This document shows positions 53,785 to 58,279 of a stretch of DNA of 64,000 nt, piece after piece. Below the pieces are notes generated by a model, which searched no databases, was not told where the DNA came from, and saw only the letters and a list, made by a program, of their open reading frames with translations. Numbering within the stretch: position 1 is the stretch's first letter; the number at the start of each line of letters is the position of its first letter. Origin of the DNA: Sulfobacillus acidophilus DSM 10332. Its GTDB lineage: Bacteria > Bacillota > Sulfobacillia > Sulfobacillales > Sulfobacillaceae. The DNA lies in the NCBI GenBank assembly GCA_000237975.1, contig CP003179.1, forward strand, positions 310,001 through 374,000, read 5' to 3'. The position numbers and the translations under genes were made by a program.

Positions 53785-54664
53785 CGATTAATCCTAACCC
53801 CACCAACACAATCGTGACCAGTTGGCCGAAGGTCGGCAGTTGACCCAGTACGAGCCAGGCTAAAAGTCCGCTGCCGGCAATTTCGCCGACTAACGCGAGG
53901 GAGATGGTGGTGGCCGGCACGTAGCGGAGGAGCCAGTTAAAGAGCGTATGACCGCCCAATGTGGGAATGAGGGCGATGAGCGCGTAAAGCATCCATAAAC
54001 GGGGGCTATGCGGCCATAGCGGTTGATGGTCGAAAAGGCTCACCCCGGCTAAGACGATCATGGCCCCAAGATAGACGACGGGAGCATAGATGACCGTATC
54101 CAGAGATTGTCGCACGTTATGGCCCGCTAAAATGTAAAGCCCGCCAAAGAACGCTCCTCCGAGAGCCCATAGGATGCCCGGCAGCGATAACCGGGCGGAA
54201 GACATGAGGCCCGAGCCGAATAACCAGAGAACCCCGCTCATCACGAATCCCATTCCGAGAAGTACAGATCGAGAAAACGCTTGGCGGTTCCGGATGCGAT
54301 CGACCCCCGCCACCAGCAAGGGATGGGTGGAGACGAGCGCGGTCGAGACCGCGACCGGCAGCAATGTAAGCGATTGAATCCAGAACATAAAGTGCAGGGC
54401 GAGGGCAACTCCTGCAGCCCCCATCAAACCCCAGTGCCGCGCGTCTAACGGCCGGTGGGGACGAGCCCGCATGGCGGCCGGGCCTAAGACGAGGGTGGCC
54501 AGTCCCAATCGCCAAAAGGCAATTTGGGCAGGGGGCGCGGTGGCCAGACGGATCAGGACGGCGGCGCTCGACACAGACAAAACCCCTATCGCCACGGCCC
54601 CTTGCAGGATGACGGGCGATGGGGCTTGCCGAGAAGTGGGGAGGAGGGAATCAGACTTTGACAT
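53735..54664 (-). CDS. EamA/RhaT-family (DMT) transporter
   Basis: 309 residues with about ten membrane helices in two related halves. Typical pieces are SSAAVLIRLATAPPAQIAFWRLGLATLVLGP, HFMFWIQSLTLLPVAVSTALVSTHPLLVA and, in the second half, TLGGHTLFNWLLRYVPATTISLALVGEIAGSGLLAWLVLGQLPTFGQ. Members export amino acids or metabolites; the substrate is not predictable. The ATG lies inside the end of the SirB1-like gene (14-base overlap), which implies translational coupling. Confidence 0.88.
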   Translation of the reverse strand: MSKSDSLLPTSRQAPSPVILQGAVAIGVLSVSSAAVLIRLATAPPAQIAFWRLGLATLVLGPAAMRARPHRPLDARHWGLMGAAGVALALHFMFWIQSLTLLPVAVSTALVSTHPLLVAGVDRIRNRQAFSRSVLLGMGFVMSGVLWLFGSGLMSSARLSLPGILWALGGAFFGGLYILAGHNVRQSLDTVIYAPVVYLGAMIVLAGVSLFDHQPLWPHSPRLWMLYALIALIPTLGGHTLFNWLLRYVPATTISLALVGEIAGSGLLAWLVLGQLPTFGQLVTIVLVGLGLIVILAPPRRANSDRHHR

Positions 54665-55505
54665 AGGATTGGGTTAACATATCCCGAAAAGCCGTCAACG
54701 AATCCGCCCGTTCCGGATCCTGGTTTGTGTAGATTTGAATGAGGTTGGTCAGCATCCGGACTAACATAAACCGTGTCGGGGTCGGACTGAGATAGGCGGG
54801 ATGAAACCCAAACCCGTTGTTCATCAGAAATTGCACACATTCGCCCCGGTTGAGTAGGCGGCCTTTGTGAAAGGGATCGATAAACAAGCTGTCGTTATAT
54901 TGCAGCAAGAAGTGCCCAGGCATGCCAATCCCCACGACGGGAATGCGCAGGCGACGAGCAATCAAAAGGTAGACGGCCGACAAACTGATCGGAATGCCCA
55001 GTCGGCGGTCCAACACTTGGTTGATATAGCTGTTGTCGGGGTCGTAATAGTTATCCCGGTTTCCGGCAAACCCCAGATCTTCAAAAAAGTACTGGTTGAA
55101 CGCTTCAATCAATTCGCGTCCTTTGGTTAAGCCTTGATGATCCATGCGGTGCCGGAATTCGCGTGCCATATCGTCCAGCATATCCCGGTAATGGGTCCGG
55201 TTCAGGCTGGGATAGCCGCTTTCGGCAATGAGGAATACGCCTTCTTCGAGGTCAATCCACGCAGAGGGGGTTTCGCAGAACCGCTGAAAGCGTTGGCCGA
55301 GCTCATCGAGGCGAATTCGTTCCAATATGCTGTATACCCGCGTGCGAACATGCGGATCGGGGGAGTTGCGGGCTTCTTCTAAAAAAGGTTCCGCGTCGTG
55401 GCGGGCCTCAATTAAGGTTTTCCGCGCCACCTGGGCCGTTTTGATGTCGTCGTCACCTAAAAGGTGAATCAAGGCGCGAATTTCGCGTTCCGTGAGGCTT
55501 TTCAT
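54651..55505 (-). CDS. SirB1/transglutaminase-like family protein
   Basis: 284 residues. The hallmark is a central segment of the family: YYDPDNSYINQVLDRRLGIPISLSAVYLLIARRLRIPVVGIGMPGHFLLQY followed by LFIDPFHKGRLLNRGEC. The family is a transglutaminase-like fold of unknown function (SirB1, DUF1347-type). The N-terminal 90 residues are helical, with HEAT-like LIHLLGDDDIKTAQVARKTLIEA. The ATG at 55505 follows GAAAGGAGCGGACGGCC. It leads a two-gene operon with the EamA transporter. Confidence 0.82.
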   Translation of the reverse strand: MKSLTEREIRALIHLLGDDDIKTAQVARKTLIEARHDAEPFLEEARNSPDPHVRTRVYSILERIRLDELGQRFQRFCETPSAWIDLEEGVFLIAESGYPSLNRTHYRDMLDDMAREFRHRMDHQGLTKGRELIEAFNQYFFEDLGFAGNRDNYYDPDNSYINQVLDRRLGIPISLSAVYLLIARRLRIPVVGIGMPGHFLLQYNDSLFIDPFHKGRLLNRGECVQFLMNNGFGFHPAYLSPTPTRFMLVRMLTNLIQIYTNQDPERADSLTAFRDMLTQSYVKV

Positions 55506-56003: not shown

Positions 56004-56570
56004 ATGCGGGAACAAGTGGAGCGGTTGCTCATTTATTTAGGGCGCACCACCATGCATTTGTCGTGGCTGCAGCTCATCATCGGATATTTACTGTCGGATC
56101 CGGGGCGGGTACGGTTTGTCCCATCGCTCGACGGGACACCGGAATTGGCGATGATGATTTCCGCCCATCGGCGGATTGAAGTACCGGGACCTCCGTGGCA
56201 AGGGTATGTTCGAGGGGTGCCGGTGCCGGATCCGTTAACCTGGATTCAAGTGGCGAAGAGCATGACGGTTCCCATCGACGTGCGGCTATCCAGCGATGAT
56301 CCGATTTTGTTGCAGATGCTGACGCCGTTGGTGGCGCCGGTGGCCCGGCAGCACGAACGGTTGGAAGTGGAAGAACGGATGCAAAGTTTGCGGACGGAAT
56401 TGGATCGCGCGCTCGATCTCTATAATGAGGTACGCCATATTATGGAGGTCGACCACGAACGTCATCAAGAGCTGGAAAAGTTTTTGGGGTTAGCTGAGGC
56501 GGAGATGCAAAAAATGGGGCAGGAGTTGAAGCGGCTGAAGTCGCGCATGGATGAGGAAACATCCGGATAA
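56004..56570 (+). CDS. Coiled-coil protein of unknown function preceding the encapsulin operon
   Basis: 188 residues, not recognised with confidence. Residues 1-110 are globular, beginning VERLLIYLGRTTMHLSWLQLIIGYLLSD, which has a faint likeness to the UPF0302/YpiB N-terminal domain. Residues about 112-185 are a long charged helix with heptads (LRTELDRALDLYNEVRHIMEVDHERHQELEKFLGLAEAEMQ). The ATG follows AAGGCGGTGACG. It ends 57 bases before the encapsulin cargo gene, on the same strand and with no terminator between, so it could be co-transcribed. A role with the nanocompartment is only inferred from this position. Confidence 0.6.
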   Translation: MREQVERLLIYLGRTTMHLSWLQLIIGYLLSDPGRVRFVPSLDGTPELAMMISAHRRIEVPGPPWQGYVRGVPVPDPLTWIQVAKSMTVPIDVRLSSDDPILLQMLTPLVAPVARQHERLEVEERMQSLRTELDRALDLYNEVRHIMEVDHERHQELEKFLGLAEAEMQKMGQELKRLKSRMDEETSG

Positions 56571-56627
56571 AAGCCGGCGGCGGGGCCATACTAGGGATAT
56601 TCCGGTATAAGGGGGATATTCCGGGTC

Positions 56628-57446
56628 GTGGTCGAAAACACCGTTGTCGCACTGCTCAATGAGGATTTCAGAGGCGAGCACGCCGCGATTGTCCACTATC
56701 TGACCCACGCGTGGACGGTGGCGGCGCTTTATGGTCCCGCCATCGAGGCAATAGCCCGCGATGAAATGCGCCATATGAAATGGCTAGGACACAGTATCGT
56801 CGCCCTCGGGGGCGTCCCCGATTTGACCGTTCCCGAATTGCCGGCCGCCGTACCGTTGGAAGACGCCTTACGGGCCGACATTGAGGCGGAACAAGAAGCC
56901 ATTCGCCAATATGAGGACCACCGGGCGCGTATTGCCGATGCCGGGGTCAAATCCCTACTGACCCGCATTATGGTCGACGAGCAAGACCATCTGCGGCAAT
57001 TTGAGGCGTTTTATGCGGTATCGGCTCCCTCGGCGGGGGAGGACCCGACTGAGTCCCCGAGGTCCGAAGCCGTCCAGCGGTTGGAGCAGCTGGTGGCCAT
57101 CGAATATCGGGAGATTCTTCGATATCTTTTTCAGTCGTTTATCACCAGTCACGCCGCCATTGTGGGGTTAACGGCCGAAGACCATGCCGTTGAAGAAATG
57201 CGCCACCTCGATTGGGTAGCCTCCGCGTTAGTCCAAACGGGCGGGACGATTGATTGGTCGCGTCCTGTCACGGATCGGGAGTCCGCGGTCTACGAATCAC
57301 TTCGGGCCCGGTTGGACGGGGATCCGACCTGGGCAGCGGTTTTCCGTCGCATTCACGAGCGGGAACGCCTTCAAACCGAGGCGGCCGATGTTCCCCAGTG
57401 GACCGTCGGCTCTCTGCGAGGGGAGGATACGCGATGGACATCTTAG
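56628..57446 (+). CDS. Encapsulin cargo: ferritin-like protein with one and a half ferritin domains
   Basis: 272 residues. Helices 1-4 (about 12-130) give a complete ferritin-like di-iron site: Glu17, Glu46 with His49 (DEMRH), Glu88, and Glu118 with His121 (DEQDH). Residues about 148-206 repeat the first helix pair: a Glu at 159, then EEMRH (Glu190, His193), with EMRHLDWV and TGG echoing EMRHMKWL and GG. Near the C-terminus TVGSLRG (259-265) matches the targeting motif that docks cargo into encapsulin shells. The likely role is iron oxidation or storage inside the shell. The GTG start follows AAGGGGGAT. It overlaps the shell gene by 13 bases. Confidence 0.88.
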   Translation: MVENTVVALLNEDFRGEHAAIVHYLTHAWTVAALYGPAIEAIARDEMRHMKWLGHSIVALGGVPDLTVPELPAAVPLEDALRADIEAEQEAIRQYEDHRARIADAGVKSLLTRIMVDEQDHLRQFEAFYAVSAPSAGEDPTESPRSEAVQRLEQLVAIEYREILRYLFQSFITSHAAIVGLTAEDHAVEEMRHLDWVASALVQTGGTIDWSRPVTDRESAVYESLRARLDGDPTWAAVFRRIHERERLQTEAADVPQWTVGSLRGEDTRWTS

Positions 57447-58279
57447 GACGTGCCGAGTCTCCCTTGACGGAGGAGGAATGGCTCGCGCTGACCGCCGGGG
57501 TCCAGGCGGTGGCTAAACGCCATCTGGTCGGGCGTCGATTTCTTCCGCTCTTCGGGCCGCTCGGCGCGGGGGTACAGATTGTGCAAACCGACCGCATGCC
57601 GGGATGGGATTTGGCTCAAGTGTCGATGGTCGGACAAACGGCCGATGTGGCCCCGATCGAGCGAATCTATCAACCGGTGCCGCTTCTGTTTCATGATTTC
57701 GTGATCGATTGGCGGGATCTCGAACAAGTCCGTCATCAGGGCGGCCTATGGGATTGGACACGGGCCGAAGCGGCAGCCAGTTATGTCGCGATAGCGGAGG
57801 ACCGGTTAATTCTGGAGGGGCAACGGGAGCAACAATTGGACGGGCTTTTGACCGTCAGGGGTCGCCATGTACTGGAGGCCGAAGGGTGGGACGCACCGGG
57901 CGACGGGTTTCATAATGTGGCGCGGGCGATTCAGCACGCCACCGGCGCGGGCTTTCCGGGGCCCTATGCGGTATTGGTCGGGGTGTCAACGTATGCCCAG
58001 TGGCATCGGCTATGGGGCCGGACGGACGTATTGGAAGTCACGCAAATCGAGCATTTAGCCGGCGCGGGGGTCTATCGTTCGCCGTTAATGCCGGAAGATG
58101 TGATTTTGCTGATGGCGACCGGTTCGGAAAATTTGGATCTGGCCGTAGGATTGGACTGGAACGTCGCGTTTATGGAAGCCACCCGGATGAATTATATTTT
58201 TCGGGTGCTGGAAACGGTCAGTCTGCGCATTAAACGGCCCGGGGCGATTGTCGAAATTCGGCGTACGCTGCCGGAGTAA
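57434..58279 (+). CDS. Encapsulin shell protein (family 1, linocin/HK97 fold)
   Basis: 281 residues, within the normal range of about 265-285. It begins MDILGRAESPLTEEEWLALTAGVQAVAKRHLVGRRFLPLFGPLGAGVQIV, the diagnostic N-terminal arm. It continues with the DWRDLEQVRHQG segment, ARAIQHATGAGFPGPYAVLVG and the DVILLMATGSENLDLAVGLDWNVAF region. Such proteins assemble into 60- or 180-subunit cages that enclose a cargo enzyme. The ATG lies within the last codons of the cargo gene, with GGGGAGGATAC as ribosome-binding site. A longer in-frame reading from 57254 is only the other frame of the cargo gene. Confidence 0.93.
   Translation: MDILGRAESPLTEEEWLALTAGVQAVAKRHLVGRRFLPLFGPLGAGVQIVQTDRMPGWDLAQVSMVGQTADVAPIERIYQPVPLLFHDFVIDWRDLEQVRHQGGLWDWTRAEAAASYVAIAEDRLILEGQREQQLDGLLTVRGRHVLEAEGWDAPGDGFHNVARAIQHATGAGFPGPYAVLVGVSTYAQWHRLWGRTDVLEVTQIEHLAGAGVYRSPLMPEDVILLMATGSENLDLAVGLDWNVAFMEATRMNYIFRVLETVSLRIKRPGAIVEIRRTLPE

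Follow-up and report, generated by a model that had tools for sequence, protein, structure and literature searches.

Two overlapping genes of Sulfobacillus acidophilus DSM 10332 very probably form an encapsulin operon for iron handling, in which a family 1 shell packages a two-bundle ferroxidase that possibly holds heme. They lie in a stretch of 64,000 nucleotides (contig CP003179.1, positions 310,001 to 374,000 of the forward strand), hereafter called the window, whose own numbering is used below. The first gene (56628–57446, plus strand, GTG start, TAG stop) encodes the cargo, a tandem bacterioferritin-like protein of 272 amino acids, and the second (57434–58279, plus strand, ATG start) encodes the shell protein of 281 amino acids. 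The genes overlap by 13 bases on the same strand (57434–57446), as an earlier note made from the letters of the window had claimed, and their translation may be coupled. That note had also guessed that the host lives in iron-rich acid, which fits the description of strain DSM 10332 as an aerobic, moderately thermophilic, iron- and sulfide-oxidizing acidophile with a chromosome and a plasmid (PMC3558970). The genome comprises 3,557,831 bases in two contigs.

The shell protein

The product of the gene at 57434 had been taken for a family 1 encapsulin, and profile searches bore this out. It scored 217 bits against NCBIfam encap_f1 (cut-off 100) and 187.9 bits against Pfam Linocin_M18 (cut-off 24.3), and Myxococcus xanthus EncA aligned to its residues 2 to 274 (phmmer E 2.4e-62). 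An AlphaFold2 model computed from an alignment of 37 shells had a mean predicted local distance difference test score (pLDDT) of 91.9. The HK97 fold, whose absence had been named beforehand as one ground for giving up the claim, was present in this model, which matched chain 8vjo_C of M. xanthus EncA with a template modeling (TM) score of 0.93 (Foldseek E 9.4e-33).

The best fold matches of the shell were M. xanthus EncA and the encapsulins of Bacillus methanolicus, Dendrosporobacter, and Quasibacillus (TM about 0.9, identity 36–42%; 41–42% for EncA), and the shells of T. maritima, Klebsiella, and mycobacteria ranked behind them with identities of 20–25%. As judged from sequence and model, the shell is close to the large T=3/T=4 group that includes the proteins of M. 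xanthus, B. methanolicus, and Quasibacillus. Because several of the best-matching structures are T=3 or T=4 according to their titles or a review, the comparison points to a particle that is probably larger than T=1.

Fold and class of the cargo

The gene preceding the shell gene had been described as ferritin-like, and its product indeed scored 64.1 bits against Pfam Ferritin (cut-off 24.5). The earlier note missed that the protein consists of two bacterioferritin-type bundles in tandem. Comparison of residues 1–140 with residues 141–262 revealed an internal duplication (profile probability 99.6, E 4e-24). The AlphaFold2 model, based on 62 sequences (pLDDT 87.9, predicted TM score 0.84), contained eight helices arranged in bundles of residues 3–130 (56634–57017, plus strand) and 147–252 (57066–57383, plus strand), the latter made up of helices 147–172, 179–203, 218–228, and 233–252. 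The closest fold to the first bundle was mini-bacterioferritin 9qq5 (Z 20.9 over 129 residues, 1.6 Å), followed by the Dps-like PA4880 and then by bacterioferritins. By sequence, the nearest solved chain was PDB 9viw (“Bacterioferritin”, 306 amino acids, E 1e-26), which was matched twice in tandem; like the cargo, it has EMRH in the first half and retains the Met and His in the second. No paper describing 9viw was found.

The proposal that the cargo is neither a short EncFtn nor IMEF was upheld. An EncFtn protomer has about 100 amino acids and two helices, whereas the cargo has 272 amino acids and eight helices, and the EncFtn profiles (TIGR04535 and the EncB family) gave 17.5 bits (cut-off 125) and 30.4 bits (cut-off 90). 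EncB and EncC of M. xanthus are short EncFtn proteins that form decamers and build their active site by pairing, whereas the cargo holds complete bundles in one chain. The IMEF of Quasibacillus thermotolerans is similar in coming from a Firmicute, in being a four-helix bundle with a TVGSL-type targeting peptide, and in having a related shell. IMEF resembles Dps and is without ExxH, according to a 2024 review (PMC11202242), whereas EMRH is found in both bundles of the cargo. IMEF was not among the sequence matches of the cargo, an absence that is no proof of unrelatedness. A bacterioferritin of the 24-mer type was likewise rejected, with a TIGR00754 score of 24.6 bits against a cut-off of 125.55.

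Cargos of this kind have been catalogued without experiment in two surveys (PMC8346489, PMC11202242). Andreas and Giessen (2021, PMC8346489) list “bacterioferritin” cargos that combine two four-helix bundles with a targeting peptide and come from Firmicutes, Aquificae, Chloroflexi, and Cyanobacteria. Eren et al. (2024, PMC11202242) describe a “Bfr-like FLP (Flp + Flp)” group with a conserved center in the first bundle and variable centers in the second. All of the class features that were tested were found here: two bundles per chain, a conserved first site with a variable second site, and a tail together with an adjacent shell. By sequence and model, the cargo is thus a member of this already listed, experimentally uncharacterized class. 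What the present analysis adds is its placement in the Sulfobacillaceae, the decay of the second site, an invariant methionine pair, and a prediction of heme; heme is not discussed for the class in the parts of the two accounts that concern it.

The fold of the cargo bears on where the iron would be held. Twelve two-bundle chains could close into a bacterioferritin-like sphere of 24 bundles inside the shell, so that iron would collect in the inner cage and not in the shell lumen. Eren et al. modeled another member of the class as a 12-mer that would fit into shells of both T=1 and T=3 type (PMC11202242), and the mini-bacterioferritin closest to the first bundle forms a 12-mer cage. However, the second bundle has a short third helix (218–228, compared with 77–101 in the first bundle), the fifth helix of the 24-mer type was not seen in the cargo model, and the tail must still reach the shell. 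We regard such a cage within a cage as unlikely and favor deposition of iron in the shell lumen.

The targeting tail and linkage to the shell

The cargo ends in WTVGSLRGEDTRWTS, and its C-terminus, VPQWTVGSLRGEDTRWTS, contains TVGSLRG at residues 259–265 (57402–57422, plus strand), within a tail modeled with low confidence (pLDDT about 55 over residues 261–272). The earlier note had placed this motif close to LTVGSLR; TVGSLRG is present as stated, but the residue before it is W and not L, giving WTVGSLRG where the native targeting peptide of M. xanthus reads PLTVGSLRRGG. The degenerate pattern TVG[S..]L[RK] matched the whole 3.56-Mb genome 14 times, and of these the cargo alone is a long open frame with TVGSL[RK] at its C-terminus. 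The motif is therefore not ascribed to chance. A second cargo was sought in the genome and none was found, the other matches to TVGxL/F patterns not ending a real gene.

The presence of [TS][VI]G[SPTAK] within the last 45 residues was scored in 62 aligned relatives, the protein of the window included. The motif occurred in 35/35 relatives linked to a shell gene and in 0/27 relatives without a shell neighbor. On a tree built without the tail, shell linkage switched four times, and the motif moved with linkage each time. At one locus (L095), the cargo and its chromosomal neighborhood were retained and the motif was absent, and no shell was detectable in the 651 bases left on the contig. The constant core of the tail in the Sulfobacillaceae was TVG, nearly always WTVG, followed by SLR, SLK, PLK, KP, TP, or PYPE. 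These results indicate that the protein is a dedicated cargo with a predicted C-terminal targeting peptide. The tail would bind the shell interior, load the cargo during assembly, and anchor the enzyme to the wall.

Ferroxidase sites and an invariant methionine pair

The mini-bacterioferritin of Ca. Methanoperedens (Mper-mBfr; 9qq4/9qq5) binds its di-iron center through Glu16, Glu49, His52, Glu91, Glu124, and His127, and its Met50 is an axial porphyrin ligand on the two-fold axis (PMC13168243). It shares with the first bundle of the cargo the fold, the ligand set, and a Met at the heme position, at 29% identity. It differs in having a single bundle that forms a 12-mer cage, in not being encapsulated, and in having no described targeting peptide. 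By alignment, the equivalents in the first bundle are E17, E46, H49, E88, E118, and H121, a complete ferroxidase center, with M47 in the position of Met50. The equivalents in the second bundle are E159, E190, H193, E218, E246, and Q249, in which Gln replaces the last His, together with M191. E46, M47, H49, E88, E118, and H121 were invariant in 62/62 relatives, E17 was found in all 60 with that position filled, and Met191, like Met47, was kept in 62/62.

Since the peptide patterns used in the genome scan contained both Met residues, the counts were repeated on an unbiased set (A1) of 25 relatives collected by BLAST with no motif filter. The first site was intact throughout this set, with E17 present in all 23 rows that reached the position. 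In the second bundle, E190 was kept in 20/25, E218 in 16/25, E246 in 21/25, and H249 in 6/25, the last histidine thus being lost in 19 of the 25 sequences. Met47, Met191, and His193 were each present in 25/25. Furthermore, among scan loci that matched one pattern only, the other Met was invariant (24/24 and 19/19). These results suggest that the second bundle is probably no longer a full ferroxidase.

Loss of H249 was also considered as a rule of encapsulation. In the Sulfobacillaceae, it was missing in 18/20 shell-linked copies and present in 15/15 unlinked copies; in shell-linked copies outside the family, it was present in 14/15. The tree provides only four independent contrasts, with which a sign test cannot reach significance, and the copies outside the family mostly keep the His. 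The rule was therefore rejected, and the loss was taken as a lineage trait.

Met47 and Met191 may serve as axial ligands of an intramolecular heme site between two unequal halves. Fusion would then have locked a bacterioferritin-type dimer into one chain, whose second half probably lost the oxidase work and kept the heme face. Extended to the class as a whole, this would make it a group of heme-bridged ferroxidases, each a fused dimer with one di-iron half and one heme half, in which the heme relays electrons for iron release; we put this forward tentatively, as a proposal that may well prove wrong. A structural role for the pair, in which the residues pack the pseudo-dimer interface and no heme is bound, has a nearly even chance of being correct: Met is good at helix packing, and H193 is equally invariant. 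Against it, Met is invariant at both positions while adjacent ligand positions drift.

Distribution and neighborhood of the locus

A shell match was found in 21 of 34 sampled genomes of the Sulfobacillaceae. One of these shells is split into two frames (L052 and L053, G426:C130:9230-9636), through a pseudogene or an assembly error. The cargo adjoined the shell in 19/19 other full Sulfobacillaceae shell loci examined, which lie in 19 other genomes. The order transglutaminase-like gene, coiled-coil gene, cargo, shell, NUDIX gene, and glycosyltransferase gene was syntenic across most of the loci of the family, which suggests that the locus is an old resident and not a recent import. In the window, the flanking transglutaminase-like gene is located at 54651–55505 (minus strand), and the sequence AGGGGG at 56610–56615 (plus strand), 12 bases 5' of the cargo GTG, is a possible ribosome-binding site by its resemblance to the consensus. 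Across the Sulfobacillaceae, identities were 80–89% for the transglutaminase-like protein, 46–61% for the shell, and 41–49% for the cargo, the latter two having diverged far more rapidly within a shared locus. The upstream coiled-coil gene (56004–56570, plus strand) encodes 188 amino acids that match no Pfam family above the cut-off, and it is conserved in the family and the order alike. It was rejected as a third member of the operon, as it occurs there with or without a shell.

Many Sulfobacillaceae have a second double-bundle paralog that is tail-less, lies far from any shell, and keeps His249 (L099, L100, L102, L105, L106, L110, L114, L115, and others). Both forms were present in the assemblies of S. 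harzensis (L091 and L106), WH5.bin23 (L088 and L114), and AMDSBA1 (L085 and L115).

Beyond the family, pairs of a double-bundle cargo and a shell were found in genomes of Chloroflexota, Thermosediminibacter, Thermovorax, Latescibacterota, and Armatimonadota. At one locus (L152:5169-6771, very like L051), the order is reversed, with the shell before the cargo; this cargo is about 30% identical, has Lys in place of E159, and ends in WSVGSLKPK. In a metagenome-assembled genome of Candidatus Poribacteria (SpSt-970, DTPJ01000504.1; L151:277-1547), a single-bundle bacterioferritin-type cargo of 155 amino acids, longer than EncFtn, ends in TLTIGSLKEGGEK and retains both EMRH and the motifs of the ferroxidase ligands. 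Its gene overlaps a family 1 shell gene (267 bits) by one base. This protein looks like an unduplicated form of the S. acidophilus cargo.

A model for iron handling

According to the proposed model, Fe(II) would pass through the shell pores and be oxidized at the di-iron site of the first bundle with O2 or H2O2, and Fe(III) mineral would collect in the shell lumen. The role left to the second bundle would be to complete a bacterioferritin-like pseudo-dimer, and heme between the halves might carry electrons for iron release.

Several observations weigh against parts of this model. H193 is conserved no less strictly than M191, which would still allow the second site to hold a single metal. The shortened cores WTVGKP and WTVGTP occur in several relatives within the family; the shell must therefore accept a core without SL. 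Bfd ferredoxin is the usual reductase partner of bacterioferritin, and a search of the S. acidophilus genome with the Pfam model for Bfd returned none. Besides the cargo, the only Pfam Ferritin matches in the genome were one Dps and one rubrerythrin. Given this short list and the lack of a Bfd match, the compartment is likely to be the main bulk iron store of the host.

A compartment serving mainly against peroxide and oxidative stress, with a di-iron site that consumes H2O2, a shell that sequesters Fe(II), and little mineral, seems improbable to us. Such a role was put forward for Flp encapsulins in general, and S. acidophilus lives aerobically on Fe(II). However, no peroxidase is encoded at the locus, where the neighbors, NUDIX among them, are ordinary syntenic genes, and no evidence obtained here separates this role from storage. 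Elsewhere (L162:1417-2379), a Dps gene is followed by a gene for a Fur/PerR-like regulator of 142 amino acids with an HHHFVCDRC motif, possibly reflecting iron or peroxide regulation. Storage of iron in the shell lumen is the function that we prefer for the compartment.

The double-bundle class has so far been listed from sequence and modeled only, and it raises the questions of a possible inner cage and of the benefit of enclosing iron chemistry two times over. The type strain of S. acidophilus has been deposited and its genome is complete. Its family contains copies with a tail and a shell neighbor as well as paralogs that lack both, in several cases within one assembly, which allows a clean comparison. 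The invariant methionine pair turns the vague label “Bfr-like” into a specific and cheaply testable prediction of heme. If heme were found, it would bear on how iron leaves encapsulins, a point that the 2024 review treats as unresolved (PMC11202242), and with the proposed relay role for the heme the compartment would be a heme-dependent encapsulin iron store, unlike those built on EncFtn and IMEF.
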